21,501 nt of DNA. It comes from a virus. The notes beneath the pieces were generated by a model that was not told the DNA's origin, ran no database searches, and saw nothing but the letters and a program-made list of their open reading frames with translations. The translations under genes were made by a program, and so were the position numbers. The stretch lies in IMG/VR virus record IMGVR_UViG_3300050139_000304, positions 1 through 21,501 of that record, one strand, 5' to 3'. Shown piece by piece: positions 7,576 to 13,303 of this stretch; positions within the stretch are counted from its first letter, which is position 1; every line of letters begins with the position of its first letter.

Positions 7576-9138
7576 ATGCCGATCGTTCAACAGGGCAGCA
7601 TCAACACCACCGCTCTGGTGGTGCCCGATCTCTATGTCCAGATCGTCCCGCCGCAGAATCTGGTGCTCAACGGCGTGCCGACCAATGTGGTCGGTGCGGT
7701 CGGCACAGCCGCCTGGGGGCCGGTTGGCCAGCCGGTGATCGTTGCCACCATGGCCGACTATGCGCGCAATTTCGGCCCGGTGATGGCGCGCAAATACGAT
7801 CTTGGCACCCAGATCGCCACCGCCGTGCAGCAGGGCGCGCAGAATTTCCGCTGCGTGCGCGTGACCGATGGCACCGACACCGCCGCACAGGTGCAGGTTC
7901 CCGCAACCACGGCCACCTTCACCGCGCTCTACACCGGATCGCTCGGCAATTCCGTCGCGCTGGCGCTCAATCCCGGTTCACGGCCGAATAGCTGGCGCCT
8001 AACCGTTTCGCTCCCTGGCATCGCGCCGGAGGTGTTCGACAATATCGCCGGCACCGGCTCTGCCTTTTGGGTCGCGCTCGCATCCGCGGTGAACCAGGGG
8101 CAGGGGCCGCAGCGTGGCCCCTCGCAATTCGTTACCGCCAACGCTGGTGGCGCCATCGTCGCGCCGGCCGCCTTTGCGCTGACCCTTGGCTCTGGCACCG
8201 CGGGAACCGACGGCGCAGTGACCGTCAATGCGGCAACGCTTGTCGGTACGGACACCCCGCCTCGCCACGGCATGTATGCGCTGCGCGGCCAAGGCTGCTC
8301 GATCGGTCTGCTCGCGGATGCCGACGATCCGACGCAATGGACCACCCAGGCATCGTTCGGCCTGCAAGAAGGCGTCTACATGATCCTCACCGGCCCGGCC
8401 GGCGACACGATCGGCAACGCTGTCACGGTCAAGCAGCAGGCCGGCCTCGACAGCTACGCCGCCAAGCTGATGTTCGGCGACTGGCTGTGGTGGAACGACC
8501 AGGTCAACGGCACGGTCCGTCTGGTCTGCCCGCAGGGCTTCGTCGCCGGCCGGCTGTCCAACCTCTCGCCCGAGCAGTCGAGCCTCAACAAGCAGCTCTA
8601 CGGCATCATCGGCAGCCAGAAATCCGGCACGCCGGGATCGGGCCAGAGCACGTCCTATTCGTCGGCGGAACTGGCGGTGCTGCTCGGCGCTGGGATCGAC
8701 GTGATCTCCAACCCGCAGCCCGCCGGCAGTTTCTGGGGCGTGCGCGGTGGGCATAACTCGTCCAGCAACACCGGCACCAACGGCGACAACTATACCCGCC
8801 TGACCAACTACATCGCCGCCACGCTCGCCGCCGGCATGGGCATCTATGTCGGCCAGCTCATCAACGCCAACCTGTTCCGCCGCGTCCGGGCGACGCAGCT
8901 CAGCTTTCTGCAGAATATGCTCGGCCAGGGTCTGCTCGGCAGCGCCGACGGGTCGCTGCCGTTCAGCGTCATCTGCGACACCTCGAACAACCCGCAAAGC
9001 CGCACCGCGCTCGGCTACGTGCAATCGGACGCGCAGGTCCAGTACCAGGCGATCAACGAAAAGTTCATCGTCAACATGGAAGGCGGCCAGACCGTGCAGG
9101 TCGCTCGCCAGACCCTGCCCGGCGGTCAGCCGGCCTGA
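7576..9138 (+). CDS. Contractile tail sheath protein
   Basis: This 520-residue protein polymerises around the tail tube and contracts to drive the tube through the host envelope. The N-terminus has the familiar start of sheath proteins: PDLYVQIVPPQNLVLNGVPT, then NVVGAVGTAAWGPVGQPVIV and a segment on targeting and flow of the ring (YARNFGPV). The middle (about residues 115-260) is a variable beta-rich insertion. The C-terminal part (about 400-520), with NYTRLTNYIAATLAAGMGIY, RVRATQLSFLQNMLGQGLLG and QYQAINEKFIVNMEGGQTVQ, matches the conserved C-terminal domain that forms the interlocking mesh. A strong AAGGAGG lies 10 nt before the ATG. Length and position before the tube gene are typical. 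Confidence 0.95.
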   Translation: MPIVQQGSINTTALVVPDLYVQIVPPQNLVLNGVPTNVVGAVGTAAWGPVGQPVIVATMADYARNFGPVMARKYDLGTQIATAVQQGAQNFRCVRVTDGTDTAAQVQVPATTATFTALYTGSLGNSVALALNPGSRPNSWRLTVSLPGIAPEVFDNIAGTGSAFWVALASAVNQGQGPQRGPSQFVTANAGGAIVAPAAFALTLGSGTAGTDGAVTVNAATLVGTDTPPRHGMYALRGQGCSIGLLADADDPTQWTTQASFGLQEGVYMILTGPAGDTIGNAVTVKQQAGLDSYAAKLMFGDWLWWNDQVNGTVRLVCPQGFVAGRLSNLSPEQSSLNKQLYGIIGSQKSGTPGSGQSTSYSSAELAVLLGAGIDVISNPQPAGSFWGVRGGHNSSSNTGTNGDNYTRLTNYIAATLAAGMGIYVGQLINANLFRRVRATQLSFLQNMLGQGLLGSADGSLPFSVICDTSNNPQSRTALGYVQSDAQVQYQAINEKFIVNMEGGQTVQVARQTLPGGQPA

Positions 9139-9151
9139 GGAGACATAATAG

Positions 9152-9580
9152 ATGGCACTCAACACCTTCTCGGTCGGTCGCGACACTCAGCTCGTCGTGA
9201 TGGGCCCCAACGGCCGCATCGACCTTACCCACGTCACCGCCTTCGAGAGTCACCAGCTCACCCATCCCGTCCGGGTCGATCGCCTGGACGGCACCCAGCT
9301 CGGCACCGAACTGCCCAAGGGCTGGGAGGGCACGTTCGAGGTCGAGCGCGGCAACTCCGCCGTCGACGACTTCATCGCCGCCGCCGAGAATAGTTTCTAC
9401 GCCGGCAACCATGTCGGGCTGGGCACGCTTTACCAGTATGTGACGGAGCCGGACGGTTCCGTATCCACCTATCAGTACGAAAGCGTCACTTTCCACCTGG
9501 CCAGCGCCGGCCAGTGGAAGGGCGATTCCAGCGTCAAGCAGAAGCTCGAATTCTTCGCCTCCCGCCGCAAGCGCGTCTGA
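9152..9580 (+). CDS. Tail tube protein
   Basis: This 142-residue protein forms the stacked hexameric rings of the inner tail tube. It directly follows the sheath, as in other contractile phages, and is almost wholly beta-strand: MALNTFSVGRDTQLVVMGPN, an extended loop through LPKGWEGTFEVERGNSAVDD and a final strand TYQYESVTFHLASAGQWKGD. This pattern (an N-terminal strand, a loop with GWEGTFEV, then a closing strand before a basic tail KQKLEFFASRRKR) is characteristic of the tube family. AGGAGA (9138-9143) lies 8 nt before the ATG. Its stop overlaps the start of the assembly chaperone (TGATG). Confidence 0.9.
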   Translation: MALNTFSVGRDTQLVVMGPNGRIDLTHVTAFESHQLTHPVRVDRLDGTQLGTELPKGWEGTFEVERGNSAVDDFIAAAENSFYAGNHVGLGTLYQYVTEPDGSVSTYQYESVTFHLASAGQWKGDSSVKQKLEFFASRRKRV

Positions 9581-9927
9581 TGACCCCGAGCGCAACAATC
9601 CTCGCCGCCGCCGCCGCCGAGAAGACGGTGACGGACGGGCAGGGCAGGCGGCTCACGCTCCGGCGCATGACCGCGCTCGACCGGCTGCGCCTGTTCAAGG
9701 CCGCCGGTCCGGTGCTGGCCCAGAACGACCGCTGGCTCGGCATGGCAATGCTCGCCGTCTCCGTCACCGCGATCGACGACGTTCCGGTGCCGCAGCCGGC
9801 GAGCGAGCAGCAGATAGAGGCCCTGGTCGTTCGCCTCGGCGACGCCGGTATCGCCGCCGTCGCCGCCGCGCTGGACCCCGCCCCGCCGCCACGCGCGCCC
9901 GAAACCGTGGCCAACGCGGGAAACTGA
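9580..9927 (+). CDS. Tail assembly chaperone, short (unshifted) product
   Basis: This 115-residue protein starts at the ATG overlapping the tube stop; the upstream open frame lies within the tube gene. It has a helical fold: MTPSATILAAAAAEKTVTDG, a strand of GRRLTLRRMTALDRLRLFKA, then helices to a Pro-rich end (PAPPPRAPETVANAGN). Short proteins between tube and tape measure in contractile phages (P2 gpE, Mu gp41) coat the tape measure during assembly. As in those phages, this gene is followed by an overlapping reading frame reached by -1 frameshifting at GGGAAAC (9918-9924), immediately before its TGA at 9925. The short form should be the majority product. Confidence 0.78.
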   Translation: MTPSATILAAAAAEKTVTDGQGRRLTLRRMTALDRLRLFKAAGPVLAQNDRWLGMAMLAVSVTAIDDVPVPQPASEQQIEALVVRLGDAGIAAVAAALDPAPPPRAPETVANAGN

Positions 9928-10097
9928 GCCGGCACCCCGACCTGATCGATTGTCTCTACCTGGTCAGGCACGGGGTGCCCTTCGACGTCGCCTTTTCCCT
10001 GCCCGAGGACGAGCGTCTCGCCTTCGTCGTCGTTCTCGGCACGCTCGAAGGCCGGGTGTTCGACTGGCCGAGCCTCAGTTGGAAGGACCGGACATGA
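9580..10097 (+). CDS. Tail assembly chaperone, -1 frameshift fusion product
   Basis: A programmed -1 shift at 9918-9924 fuses the first 115 residues to 57 residues read from 9924, giving 172 residues. The extension begins LSRHPDLIDCLYLVRHGVPF, continues through DVAFSLPEDERLAFVVVLGT and ends RVFDWPSLSWKDRT; it is a coherent, protein-like helix-strand sequence with no start codon of its own. Its TGA (10095-10097) overlaps the ATG of the next gene as ATGA, which fits the tight packing of this operon. This is the same architecture as lambda G/GT and P2 E/E', where the minor fused form links the tape measure to the assembling tail. The shift is predicted from sequence, not measured. Confidence 0.8.
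9918..9979 (+). promoter_or_regulatory. Programmed -1 ribosomal frameshift signal
   Basis: The slippery heptamer GGGAAAC occupies 9918-9924 in the required phase (codons GGA AAC), followed by the zero-frame TGA. After a 6-nt spacer (9925-9930), GGCACCCCG (9931-9939) pairs perfectly with CGGGGTGCC (9971-9979). An inner stem CCTGATC (9941-9947) pairs with GGTCAGG (9962-9968), with one G-U. The only mismatch between the stems is a small internal bulge, and the apical loop is about 12 nt. A slippery site 6 nt upstream of a GC-rich hairpin is the textbook geometry; lambda uses GGGAAAG. Confidence 0.88.
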
Positions 10098-10474
10098 TCG
10101 CTCTCGACGGTCTGCGGGCGCTTGCCGATCGCCTGGCCCGCCTCGATCTTCCCGCCGTGCAGCATGCGGCGCTGGAAGACGCGGCGGAGCGGCTGGATGC
10201 GGCGGTGCGGCAATCGCTTTCCAACCCGCCCGGCGGCGATCACGCAACGCCCTGGTTGCGCACCGGCGCGCTGCGCGCCTCCATCGACCACCGTACGGAT
10301 GCCGACAGCGCCGTCGTCGGCTCCGACGACCCGGTCGCGGTCGATCAGGAGCTTGGCACGATGCGCGTCCCCCCGCGTCCCTTCCTCGCCACCACGGCGG
10401 CGACGCATGCGGCGGAGATCGCGCGTTCCGTCGGCGCCGCCATTGCCGAGGCGCTCAACGGAGCCCTGCGATGA
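10094..10474 (+). CDS. HK97 gp10-like tail-completion protein
   Basis: This 126-residue protein starts at the ATG overlapping the frameshift-product stop, with GGAAGGA 6 nt upstream. The N-terminal half is helical (LRALADRLARLDLPAVQHAA, then LDAAVRQSLSN). The C-terminal half has the family-type sequence TPWLRTGALRASIDH, a strand AVVGSDDPVAVDQELGT, and RVPPRPFLATTAATHAAEIA with a terminal helix. This arrangement (LRTGALRxSI, then a mid Glu-Leu-Gly-Thr and RPFL) is typical of HK97 gp10/phage G-like head-tail connection proteins. Its placement after the chaperone is unusual since these genes normally precede the sheath or tube. The stop overlaps the next start (ATGA). Confidence 0.72.
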   Translation: MIALDGLRALADRLARLDLPAVQHAALEDAAERLDAAVRQSLSNPPGGDHATPWLRTGALRASIDHRTDADSAVVGSDDPVAVDQELGTMRVPPRPFLATTAATHAAEIARSVGAAIAEALNGALR

Positions 10475-11349
10475 TCGACGCCTACACCATCGGCATCACG
10501 CTCGCGCTCGACAACGGCGTGGCCGCCGGCATCGCCGCCATCCGCCGGGATCTCGCCGCGCTGGACCGCGCCATCGCCAACTCCGCCGCCGGCCTGGTGG
10601 ATTTGCGCCACTTGTCGGAAGCGCTGCCGGCAACCACGCCGGCGCGTCCCGCCGCCCAGCCGCCCGCGCCCAGACCGCCAGTACCCGTCCCGGAGCGATC
10701 CGAGGCAGCACCGCGCGCCGCCGCCGCGCCGGCCTTTCCGCCGCCGAGCCCCACGCAGCGCTCCGTCGCGTCGCCGCCGGAGCTGCTGGCCGCCCGGCCC
10801 ATGCCCGGGGCAAACCAGACGGCGGCGGTGCCACCAGCGGTCGCTCTGGCGGCGCCGCCAGCCGTCGATGTCGGGGGAATCCCCACGGCTCCCTCCGCCT
10901 CCCCACCGGCGGCGCGGCAGCCGGCTTCGCCCTCCGCGCCCGCAGTGCGTTTCCTCGCCCCGACCGCTCCCGTCGAGCCGGTCCTGTCGGCGCCGCTCGC
11001 GCCGCCTGCGCCGGCGGTAGCATCCGCAACAATCCGCCCCGCCGCGCCATATCCTTCTGTCGGCCCCTCGGACGTCCGTCCGGCTGCCCCGGTGGCGCCG
11101 TCGACACTGCCGCCCGCGTCCCAGCCGGCCGCCGCCGCCACCACTGCGCCACCATCGCCCGCTCCGTCGGAACAGTCGCAGCAACACCAGGACGCACCGA
11201 CCCAGGCGGAGCTGCATCTGGACGGCGCCCTGCTGGGTCGCTGGGTCGGTCGCTACCTCGCGCGTCAGGTGAACCGTCCCCCGGCCGGCACCACCGGGAT
11301 CGACCCCCGCATCAGCCCGGAGTGGGCCGGCGCGCCCACCGGAGGCTGA
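10471..11349 (+). CDS. Short Pro/Ala-rich protein at the tape-measure position
   Basis: This 292-residue protein lies where the tail tape measure belongs, after the chaperone pair. The N-terminus, residues 1-50 (IDAYTIGITLALDNGVAAGI, then AAIRRDLAALDRAIAN), is a helical start like those of tape measures. The C-terminus, about 247-292 (ELHLDGALLGRWVGRYLARQ, then PPAGTTGIDPRISPEW), also looks conserved. The middle, about 50-240, is a low-complexity stretch of Pro, Ala and Ser with no transmembrane helix, coiled coil or lysozyme domain. If it sets tail length at about 0.15 nm per residue (the general rule), the tail would be about 44 nm, which is short. It could also be an internally deleted or linker-type variant. 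The identity is inferred from position. Confidence 0.5.
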   Translation: MIDAYTIGITLALDNGVAAGIAAIRRDLAALDRAIANSAAGLVDLRHLSEALPATTPARPAAQPPAPRPPVPVPERSEAAPRAAAAPAFPPPSPTQRSVASPPELLAARPMPGANQTAAVPPAVALAAPPAVDVGGIPTAPSASPPAARQPASPSAPAVRFLAPTAPVEPVLSAPLAPPAPAVASATIRPAAPYPSVGPSDVRPAAPVAPSTLPPASQPAAAATTAPPSPAPSEQSQQHQDAPTQAELHLDGALLGRWVGRYLARQVNRPPAGTTGIDPRISPEWAGAPTGG

Positions 11350-11356
11350 GCCGGCC

Positions 11357-12019
11357 ATGGACGATCTCCGTATCCCCTGCCTGCTGTGGTTCCCGGGCGA
11401 TCCGCCGCCCGATCTGTCCGGTTTCGCCGAGCCCATTCGATTGCCGGTCCGGGTGGTCTGGCGGGCGGATGCGGCGGCGGAACAGCCCGTGCCGACCGAA
11501 CCGCCGCCCCAGGCTCAGCCGCCTGAGCCGCCAGGCAACGATCTGCCCGCCAACACCGATCCAGGCGAGCCGATGTCATCGCGGATCGGGAATGCGATAT
11601 TGCGCTTGATCGTCCCAGCGGCGCAGGCACAAACTCTTGCGCCCGTAGCCGAAACAAGGGAACTTACAGGCTTCGCTACCTTCTATAATCAACCTGGAAA
11701 CAGGACAGCGAGCGGACGGACATTCGATCGAAACGGCTTAACTGCCGCAATGACATCAGATAGGGCCAAAATCGGAGATAAAGTGCGCGTCCAATTGCAA
11801 TCCGACCCGAGCAGATCGGTGGATGTCATCATAAACGACACAGGGCCTTTCGAAAGAAGGCCGGATGGAATGGTGATCCGTCCTTTGCGGCCTGATCCCA
11901 AGATCGTAATTGATCTTACTCCGCACGCTTTCGATGTATTAACTGGCGATAAGAGAGCCCTCGGGAAAGTCCAGGTCATTGTAACGGTAATGGGCCATGC
12001 TGAGCGATCACCCAGATGA
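11357..12019 (+). CDS. Phage N-terminus fused to an RlpA-like double-psi beta-barrel protein
   Basis: This 220-residue protein has two parts. Residues 1-35 (MDDLRIPCLLWFPGDPPPDL and on) form a phage-type segment that occurs again, damaged, at 13034-13117. A Pro-rich linker (about 40-70) follows. Residues about 104-197 are an RlpA-type double-psi beta barrel: GFATFYNQPGNRTASGRTFD, LTAA, VIINDTGPF (Asp161) and IDLTPHAFDVLTG. RlpA proteins bind and sometimes cleave peptidoglycan stripped of side chains. Here the Glu normally found in TASGE is Arg121 and the His of TAAH is Met132, so catalysis may be lost. An ATG at 11573 (Met73) could give a separate form beginning MSSRIGNAILRLIVPAAQAQ, with a weak signal-peptide look. 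GC content falls from about here. Confidence 0.75.
   Translation: MDDLRIPCLLWFPGDPPPDLSGFAEPIRLPVRVVWRADAAAEQPVPTEPPPQAQPPEPPGNDLPANTDPGEPMSSRIGNAILRLIVPAAQAQTLAPVAETRELTGFATFYNQPGNRTASGRTFDRNGLTAAMTSDRAKIGDKVRVQLQSDPSRSVDVIINDTGPFERRPDGMVIRPLRPDPKIVIDLTPHAFDVLTGDKRALGKVQVIVTVMGHAERSPR
11365..11447 (+). repeat. Direct repeat, copy 1 (intact)
   Basis: This 83-base segment at the 5' end of the RlpA-fusion gene matches 13034-13117 with about seven differences, one of which is a single-base indel (GGGCGA here, GGGGTGA in copy 2). It encodes the LRIPCLLWFPG part of the phage-type N-terminus. The copies lie about 1.67 kb apart in the same orientation and bracket the AT-rich genes. Confidence 0.9.
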
Positions 12020-12489
12020 AACGCACTAAAATCCTGATACTATGCCTGCTGCTCGGGCTTGCCGCGGTGACAACTCGGTCTGCTCAATCCGAAACAGTAT
12101 GGCTGTCTGTCCCCTTTGCCAAAATTGGCGAGACCGAGCGGATCGTCGATTTTGAGTTGAAAATAACCGGCGCGACAATTCGTTCCATTCCCCAGGTTCC
12201 GGAAGGTTGGTTCCTCTCGCTGACCAATGATGCATCGGGTTCGTCCGAAATCAGGGGGAACATCCAAGTGGGCGCTGCGGCATTGTATAGATCGTTTTTC
12301 AGTTCATTCCTATTTGTGGATAAAAAAAATGACCCCCAAATCAAATTCAGCATTGCTATGGATGTATCCGTAACCAAGGATTTTGAAAAATTCAAATATA
12401 TAAATATCAACACGAGCGAGATGATTGTCTCCGTAACGGCGAGATCGAGCCAGCCGCGTCCACATCCTGAGCGTAAAGCTCTCCGATAA
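12016..12489 (+). CDS. Secreted protein of unknown function
   Basis: This 157-residue protein begins at an ATG overlapping the stop of the RlpA-fusion gene (ATGA), so the two are likely co-translated. It has a clear Sec signal peptide: MKRTK followed by ILILCLLLGLAAVTT, with likely cleavage near SAQS-ETV (about residues 26). The mature part is beta-rich (VPFAKIGETERIVDFELKIT, then a Pro/Gly turn VPEGWFLSLTND, then IRGNIQVGAAAL) and contains no cysteine. Codon use and base content are far more AT-rich than the phage genes, which indicates recent acquisition. I recognise no family. A periplasmic or exported role is inferred from the signal peptide; no enzymatic motif is visible. Confidence 0.7.
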   Translation: MKRTKILILCLLLGLAAVTTRSAQSETVWLSVPFAKIGETERIVDFELKITGATIRSIPQVPEGWFLSLTNDASGSSEIRGNIQVGAAALYRSFFSSFLFVDKKNDPQIKFSIAMDVSVTKDFEKFKYININTSEMIVSVTARSSQPRPHPERKALR

Positions 12490-12593
12490 CGTCCCGCCAA
12501 CAACAACGAGCCGCCCTACCGCCCGAAATCAAAATTTCCTGCCTGCGCTGGTGGATTATTTCCCGCATATTCGTAACCCGGAATAGGCATAGA

Positions 12594-12962
12594 ATGCTGG
12601 CTTTCCTACGTGGGCTGTTAATAGGCATCGTGCTGTGTGCCGCGTTCCTATCGTTGTTATTCGTTGCGATTGCTGCATTTCCCCAATGTACGTCACAGGA
12701 TCTCCGGATTGCTTCTCCCAGCGGCGAAATGGCAATCGTCACGAGATTAGAAGATTGTGGAAATGCACTGTCGGGAGCCTTTTCTTACGCCGCGTATGTA
12801 GTTAAAGGCAATATGGACACCGGATCGGCATCCGAAGAAAACAAGATTCTCCAAACCGATGTGATGGACACGTATCCCGAGATCGGCATTCATTGGAACG
12901 GCGAATCTTCGGTGGTGCTGTTGATACCAAAACAAACGCCAATCAGGCTGCAGGAAATTTAA
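12594..12962 (+). CDS. Membrane-anchored protein of unknown function
   Basis: This 122-residue protein starts with an N-terminal transmembrane segment (FLRGLLIGIVLCAAFLSLLF) and a short exposed domain. The exposed domain contains PQCTSQDLRIASPSGEMAIV, then a DCG motif, then GIHWNGESSVVLLIPKQT. The pattern SP-G-x-V...DCG...W...V-L resembles small uncharacterised proteins of Gram-negative accessory regions, but I cannot confirm that. Two cysteines (Cys32 and the one in DCG) could form a periplasmic disulphide. Base content is AT-rich, like the gene before it. A 104-base gap separates the two genes, which probably share a transcript. The membrane topology is clear; the role is unknown. Confidence 0.65.
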   Translation: MLAFLRGLLIGIVLCAAFLSLLFVAIAAFPQCTSQDLRIASPSGEMAIVTRLEDCGNALSGAFSYAAYVVKGNMDTGSASEENKILQTDVMDTYPEIGIHWNGESSVVLLIPKQTPIRLQEI

Positions 12963-13162: not shown

Positions 13163-13303
13163 TCACGGCCGGTCGTGACCTGCCACTGATCTTTCATCCA
13201 GCGGCGACCAGACCCTCGGCGAGGGTCGACCCGTTGCGTTCATGTGCGCGGCATAGGCCGCAGGCATCCGATACCCGATCGATGAATGCGGCAGACGGAT
13301 GTC
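13163..13303 (-). mobile_element. Fragment resembling an IS3-family transposase C-terminus
   Basis: On the - strand, reading from 13294 toward 13163, the translation gives LPHSSIGYRMPAAYAAHMNA and then TGRPSP. RPHSSLGYxTPAAYAA followed by TG is the hallmark end of IS3-family OrfB transposases. Only about 40 residues remain and nothing upstream resembles the catalytic DDE domain, so it is a remnant. I could not identify terminal inverted repeats or a target-site duplication. It lies between the broken gene copy and the U-like gene. Confidence 0.55.

Follow-up and report, generated by a model that had tools for sequence, protein, structure and literature searches.

A conserved −1 frameshift signal in a predicted G/GT-type tail assembly chaperone gene of contractile-tailed phages of Acetobacteraceae and related bacteria

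We examined a 21,501-nt stretch of viral DNA (IMG/VR record IMGVR_UViG_3300050139_000304, positions 1 to 21,501; hereafter the window) and found a gene that, from sequence comparison, almost certainly encodes a G/GT-type tail assembly chaperone whose long form would be made by a −1 ribosomal slip, in a phage or prophage with a contractile tail and with Acetobacteraceae and related bacteria as hosts. Frameshifting in tail chaperone genes is textbook knowledge for tailed phages; judged by its sequence, the present case is a well-supported and previously unannotated example of a kind that is itself already known. The features of the region are as follows.

7576..9138, + strand: tail sheath (phrog_23, E 2e-43)
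9152..9580, + strand: probable tail tube, just upstream of the chaperone (position and length; phrog_12993, E 3e-45, function unannotated)
9580..9927, + strand: zero-frame gene, predicted 115-aa tail assembly chaperone of gpG / P2 E type (phrog matches, fold, position 3' of the sheath and tube genes)
9918..9924, + strand: slippery heptamer G_GGA_AAC (sequence; GGGAAAC or AAAAAAC at 93/93 distinct sites)
9925..9927, + strand: zero-frame stop TGA, directly 3' of the heptamer and within the 6-nt spacer
9924..10097, + strand: −1 frame extension of 57 aa (gpT / P2 E' type), predicted to be made only within a 172-aa fusion
9931..9939, + strand: outer stem, 5' arm GGCACCCCG (paired in 99.7% of cells at 84 sites; silent positions frozen)
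9941..9948, + strand: weaker inner stem, 5' arm (RNA fold; paired in 90% of cells)
9961..9968, + strand: weaker inner stem, 3' arm (RNA fold; paired in 90% of cells)
9971..9979, + strand: outer stem, 3' arm CGGGGTGCC (complementary to 9931-9939; kept in relatives)
10094..10474, + strand: Neck1 / tail-completion-like protein (phrog_5, E 1e-10)
10471..11349, + strand: gene in tape-measure position, 292 aa, with a Pro/Ala-rich middle (position; in 47 relatives the ends are conserved and the middle varies)

The zero frame, set by the ATG at 9580, divides the heptamer as G_GGA_AAC and gives a product of 115 aa. The −1 frame, translated from 9924, reads LSRHPDLIDCLYLVRHGVPFDVAFSLPEDERLAFVVVLGTLEGRVFDWPSLSWKDRT (57 aa) up to a TGA at 10095-10097 that overlaps the ATG of the next gene at 10094-10096 (ATGA), and the predicted fusion is 172 aa long. 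No ATG or TTG was found in this frame between the upstream stop (9441) and 10097, and its sole GTG codons there, at 9975 and 10056, both lie inside the conserved domain. The outer stem is a perfect 9-bp helix that begins 6 nt 3' of the heptamer, and an RNA fold of 9915-10000 recovered both the outer and the inner stem (−36.3 kcal/mol, where shuffled sequences averaged −27.5; z = −2.8). These elements had been described in the initial annotation, made from the letters of the window: the GGGAAAC in correct phase with the TGA directly after it and the open −1 frame of 57 residues overlapping the next ATG both match base for base, the extension indeed has no start codon other than the internal GTGs, and the 9-bp stem six bases on, with its inner companion, was confirmed. 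Just 29 heptamers of XXXYYYZ type occur in the window, counting both strands and any frame. We estimate that about 0.007 in-phase heptamers would be expected by chance at most about 25 nt from the stop of a given gene, and that the corresponding figure for a 9-bp stem both perfect and plausibly spaced is about 0.001; a chance origin of the two is untenable because both are conserved in relatives.

We searched for homologues with the predicted fusion protein and recovered 80 IMG/VR loci and 20 loci from GTDB genomes. Most belong to Acetobacteraceae and unplaced Proteobacteria metagenome assemblies, one contig, of an Acetobacteraceae assembly, being identical. After removal of duplicates, and with enough downstream DNA required, this first set comprised 84 distinct sites, the window's own among them as well as an isolate genome and two complete phage genomes. 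The heptamer was in phase at 84/84 sites (77 GGGAAAC and 7 AAAAAAC), with the zero-frame stop directly after it in 70 and 18 nt later in 14. Since the fusion itself had served as query, we repeated the search with the zero-frame protein alone, and GGGAAAC was present at 61/61 distinct sites. The union of both searches, drawn from IMG/VR, GTDB genomes and two Komagataeibacter phages, holds 93 distinct sites, all in phase, of which 86 have GGGAAAC and 7 AAAAAAC; the last heptamer base is C at 93/93. The stop lies directly 3' of the heptamer in 74/93 and is absent there in 19/93, where it comes 18 nt further on. In a subgroup without the direct stop (loci L014, L018, L043, L050, L072, L073, L079, L086, L088, L091-L093, L095 and L102) the zero-frame product after GGGAAAC is six codons longer, its stop being a TGA that falls within the inner stem.

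Conservation of the heptamer, proposed earlier as a check, thus extends to all sampled relatives except one metagenome contig (L075, around 1200-1377), which has no heptamer and in which a different shift links the two frames; the heptamer was apparently lost there through a 1-nt loss in GGGAAAC, either a sequence error or real. The same counts bear on whether the window merely carries a chance heptamer within a sequencing or assembly frameshift error that splits one gene. All that speaks for this explanation is how often metagenome contigs carry such errors in general, and the relatives already refute it, with the same split at 84/84 sites of the first set, isolate genome and both complete phage genomes included, and at the 61/61 sites of the second search; we give it next to no probability.

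The outer stem was paired in 99.7% of cells across the 84 sites, compared with 35-49% when one arm was slid, and its arms are retained even in the Komagataeibacter phages phiKX1 and phiKX2. Compensatory changes had been suggested as a further check on the stem. They are nearly lacking in the outer stem, with classical covariation in a single cell, because each silent position faces a codon-constrained position in the other arm; the inner stem has 7 cells with changes on both sides. Covariation being nearly impossible without an amino acid change, we took the freezing of silent sites as the test of the stem, and it is this freezing, together with the retained pairs, that bears the stem out. The codons GGG (82/82) and GTG (83/83), both of fourfold families, and CAC (83/83) are invariant at positions where silent variation would disrupt or weaken a stem pair. 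The stem CCC varies to CCT alone (7/82), which retains a G-U pair, and the arginine codons are CGG and AGG alone, with the third G paired in both. The proline codon at 9978, whose third position lies one base outside the stem, varies freely (CCG 35, CCC 18, CCA 17, CCT 13). This pattern indicates that the silent-site constraint in the stem acts on the RNA and not on the protein. The hairpin is conserved and selected and is a putative stimulator of slippage; the stem was sought in Rfam, where it has no entry. The stem also weighs on whether the fusion could arise through slippage of RNA polymerase instead of the ribosome. The six A of the AAAAAAC variants would suit a slipping polymerase; however, the common GGGAAAC has runs of three at most, runs of three bases are too short for polymerase slippage, and a frozen RNA stem at 6-nt spacing fits a ribosomal signal, so that slippage at transcription is extremely improbable.

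The extension itself is under strong purifying selection, as judged from its codons. Pairwise pN/pS over the extension was 0.216 in the −1 frame versus 1.65 and 2.06 in the other two frames, where stops number 1.8-2.2 per sequence. For the part 3' of the stem (9990-10067), the values were 0.277 versus 1.52 and 1.98, and the zero-frame gene had a pN/pS of 0.299. No premature stop was found in the −1 extension of the 84 sequences. The codon conservation that had been put forward as a check on the −1 frame is therefore present. Readthrough of the TGA at 9925 was considered and rejected, since the next in-frame TGA follows at 9943 and the conserved extension would be out of reach.

The extension could also be read as a small gene of its own, with a start within the −1 frame that might depend on translational coupling to the stop upstream. 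This is how phiKX2 is annotated, with BCZ76137 beginning at an ATG 17 nt past the stop, and the window does have a GTG at 9975. However, many relatives have no ATG, GTG or TTG from the upstream −1 stop to the first 30 bases of the domain, conservation is among the highest at the residues ahead of any such start (LSRHPDL), and a separate gene would leave the invariant in-phase heptamer and the phased stem unexplained. We consider separate initiation very unlikely and a frameshifted fusion the preferred reading. In phiKX2 (BCZ76137, L001 6348-6527) and in L002, the public annotation splits the fusion and begins its second part at an internal ATG. The initial annotation had warned that automatic annotation would cut the extension short, and the phiKX1 and phiKX2 records do show a truncated second protein.

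The 115-aa product matched phrog_20383 (E 1.4e-25), whose function is unannotated; of 53 relatives, 28 had a weak match to phrog_508, 'tail assembly chaperone' (best E 8e-4). The AlphaFold model of this product had a pLDDT of 82.7, and its best PDB match was the HK97 tail assembly chaperone 2ob9, with moderate Foldseek scores (E 0.11, prob 0.85). In VIA, the match to 2ob9 had a Z of 5.3, which is below the level that the tool calls safe, with an rmsd of 4.6 and 96 aligned. The next VIA match was B. subtilis YqbN (3klu), which we take to be a prophage chaperone-type protein, and the BFVD structure matches included several tail assembly chaperones. Pfam scans of the zero-frame part and of the extension gave nothing credible, the search of solved-structure sequences and the DNA-level search of phage records gave no match, and hhalign of the family profile against the single sequences of lambda G, P2 E and Mu gp41 gave nothing significant, the nearest being Mu gp41 (E 0.017). 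Folded alone, the extension was modelled with low confidence (pLDDT 65, pTM 0.40). The gene order runs sheath, probable tube, chaperone, Neck1-like gene and tape-measure position, which places the chaperone between the probable tube and the tape-measure position. With this order and the frameshift signal added to the moderate fold and profile scores, the gene is firmly assigned as a G/GT-type tail assembly chaperone, its predicted fold being nearest to the HK97 chaperone.

Most ribosomes would end at the TGA at 9925 and release the 115-aa chaperone. A minority would be held up by the hairpin 6 nt downstream and slip back by one base on G_GGA_AAC, the P-site pairing changing from GGA to GGG and that of the A-site from AAC to AAA. 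These ribosomes would add 57 residues and so make a chaperone of 172 aa that has a second domain. In the established lambda model, the tape measure protein is bound by the short form. The frameshifted form, which is rarer, binds the tail tube protein as well and initiates its polymerisation, and neither form is part of the finished tail (PMC5009743). By analogy, the short form would coat the tape measure protein here and the long form would also recruit tail tube subunits. What the comparison shows is the sequence, its conservation, and the selection on the −1 frame and on the stem; ribosome slippage, its rate and the roles of both products are what we infer.

The heptamer GGGAAAC has already been reported in Colossus (PMC3556154), KL1 (PMC3483164) and HCTV-1 (PMC5009743). 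As in lambda G/GT, the window has a −1 extension near the end of the chaperone gene, downstream of the tail tube gene, and the start of the next gene overlaps the end of the extension; the lambda site, GGGAAAG, has 6/7 bases in common with the window's. Unlike in lambda, the heptamer ends in C and not G, the stop follows it directly, the stem is strong and conserved, the extension has 57 aa, the tail is contractile and a Neck1-like gene precedes the tape-measure position; the two have no detectable sequence similarity. P2 E / E+E' resembles the window in its contractile tail, in the order of sheath, tube and chaperone, and in the size of its extension (91 aa to 142 aa), but its tape measure gene T directly follows and overlaps, and no sequence similarity was found. 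The initial annotation had likened the arrangement to lambda G/GT and P2 E/E', and this holds for a chaperone with a −1 extension but not for the Neck1-like gene before the tape-measure position, which is as in HK97 and KL1. Burkholderia phage KL1 (gp18/gp19) likewise has GGGAAAC directly before TGA, a predicted stem-loop and an intervening gene before the tape measure, the last also reported for HK97; it is a siphovirus with products of 142 and 264 aa, likened here by signal and gene order (PMC3483164). The Caulobacter phages Colossus (GGGAAAC) and phiCbK (AAAAAAC) have the same two AAC-ending heptamers and alphaproteobacterial hosts but are large siphoviruses, and are likened here by heptamer (PMC3556154). 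The Komagataeibacter phages phiKX1 and phiKX2 (PhiKX2_400/410) carry a true homologue: each of the two domains is ~34% identical, the heptamer is AAAAAAC and the outer stem is unchanged in kind; they differ in that the gene is annotated as two hypothetical proteins and that a 742-aa protein occupies the tape-measure position.

The gene in tape-measure position (10471-11349) has a conserved start of ~48 aa, a conserved end of 55 aa and a Pro/Ala-rich middle (~40%) of variable length; its 47 distinct relatives (L005, L013, L087, L099 and others) measure 267-511 aa, with a median of 364. The 742-aa counterpart in phiKX2 looks similar at its ends but has a long middle of the ordinary kind. A spacer that looks disordered would be unusual in a tape measure, and we regard the window's gene as a putative one. 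Between this gene and the gene at 13286, positions 11357-12962 contain two small ORFs as well as a gene for an RlpA-like protein of the double-psi beta-barrel type (Pfam DPBB_1, E 1.7e-8). Few relatives match this set of ORFs, which could represent cargo that was inserted or else a tail protein that degrades the wall. The gene at 13286, kept by most relatives, is a putative DNA circulation protein, assigned by position.

AAG outperforms AAC as a slip codon in E. coli, because the sole tRNA-Lys(UUU) there pairs weakly with AAG, and a second lysine tRNA reading AAG would be expected to dissociate poorly (PMC5009743). The poorer performance of AAC counts as a point against the slip proposed for the window. 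Among ten genomes carrying relatives, several of them incomplete metagenome assemblies, ARAGORN found tRNA-Lys(CUU) in seven, with an eighth by pattern, mostly alongside tRNA-Lys(UUU); tRNA-Asn(GUU) was found in 6/10 of the same genomes. The host tRNA-Lys(CUU) may explain the invariant AAC of the 93 sites: AAG would slip poorly in such hosts and phages would fix AAC. Whether the last heptamer base tracks host lysine tRNAs in general, with AAC where a separate tRNA-Lys(CUU) exists and AAG where there is tRNA-Lys(UUU) only, as in E. coli, is a tentative idea that we think somewhat doubtful.

The analysis supplies a function for the unannotated family phrog_20383, together with an extension that automatic annotation drops or truncates. 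It also provides a natural data set, with more than 90 variants of one frameshift signal in which the silent sites of the stem are visibly frozen. Finally, the uniform AAC in hosts with tRNA-Lys(CUU) makes the general question of slip-codon choice testable.
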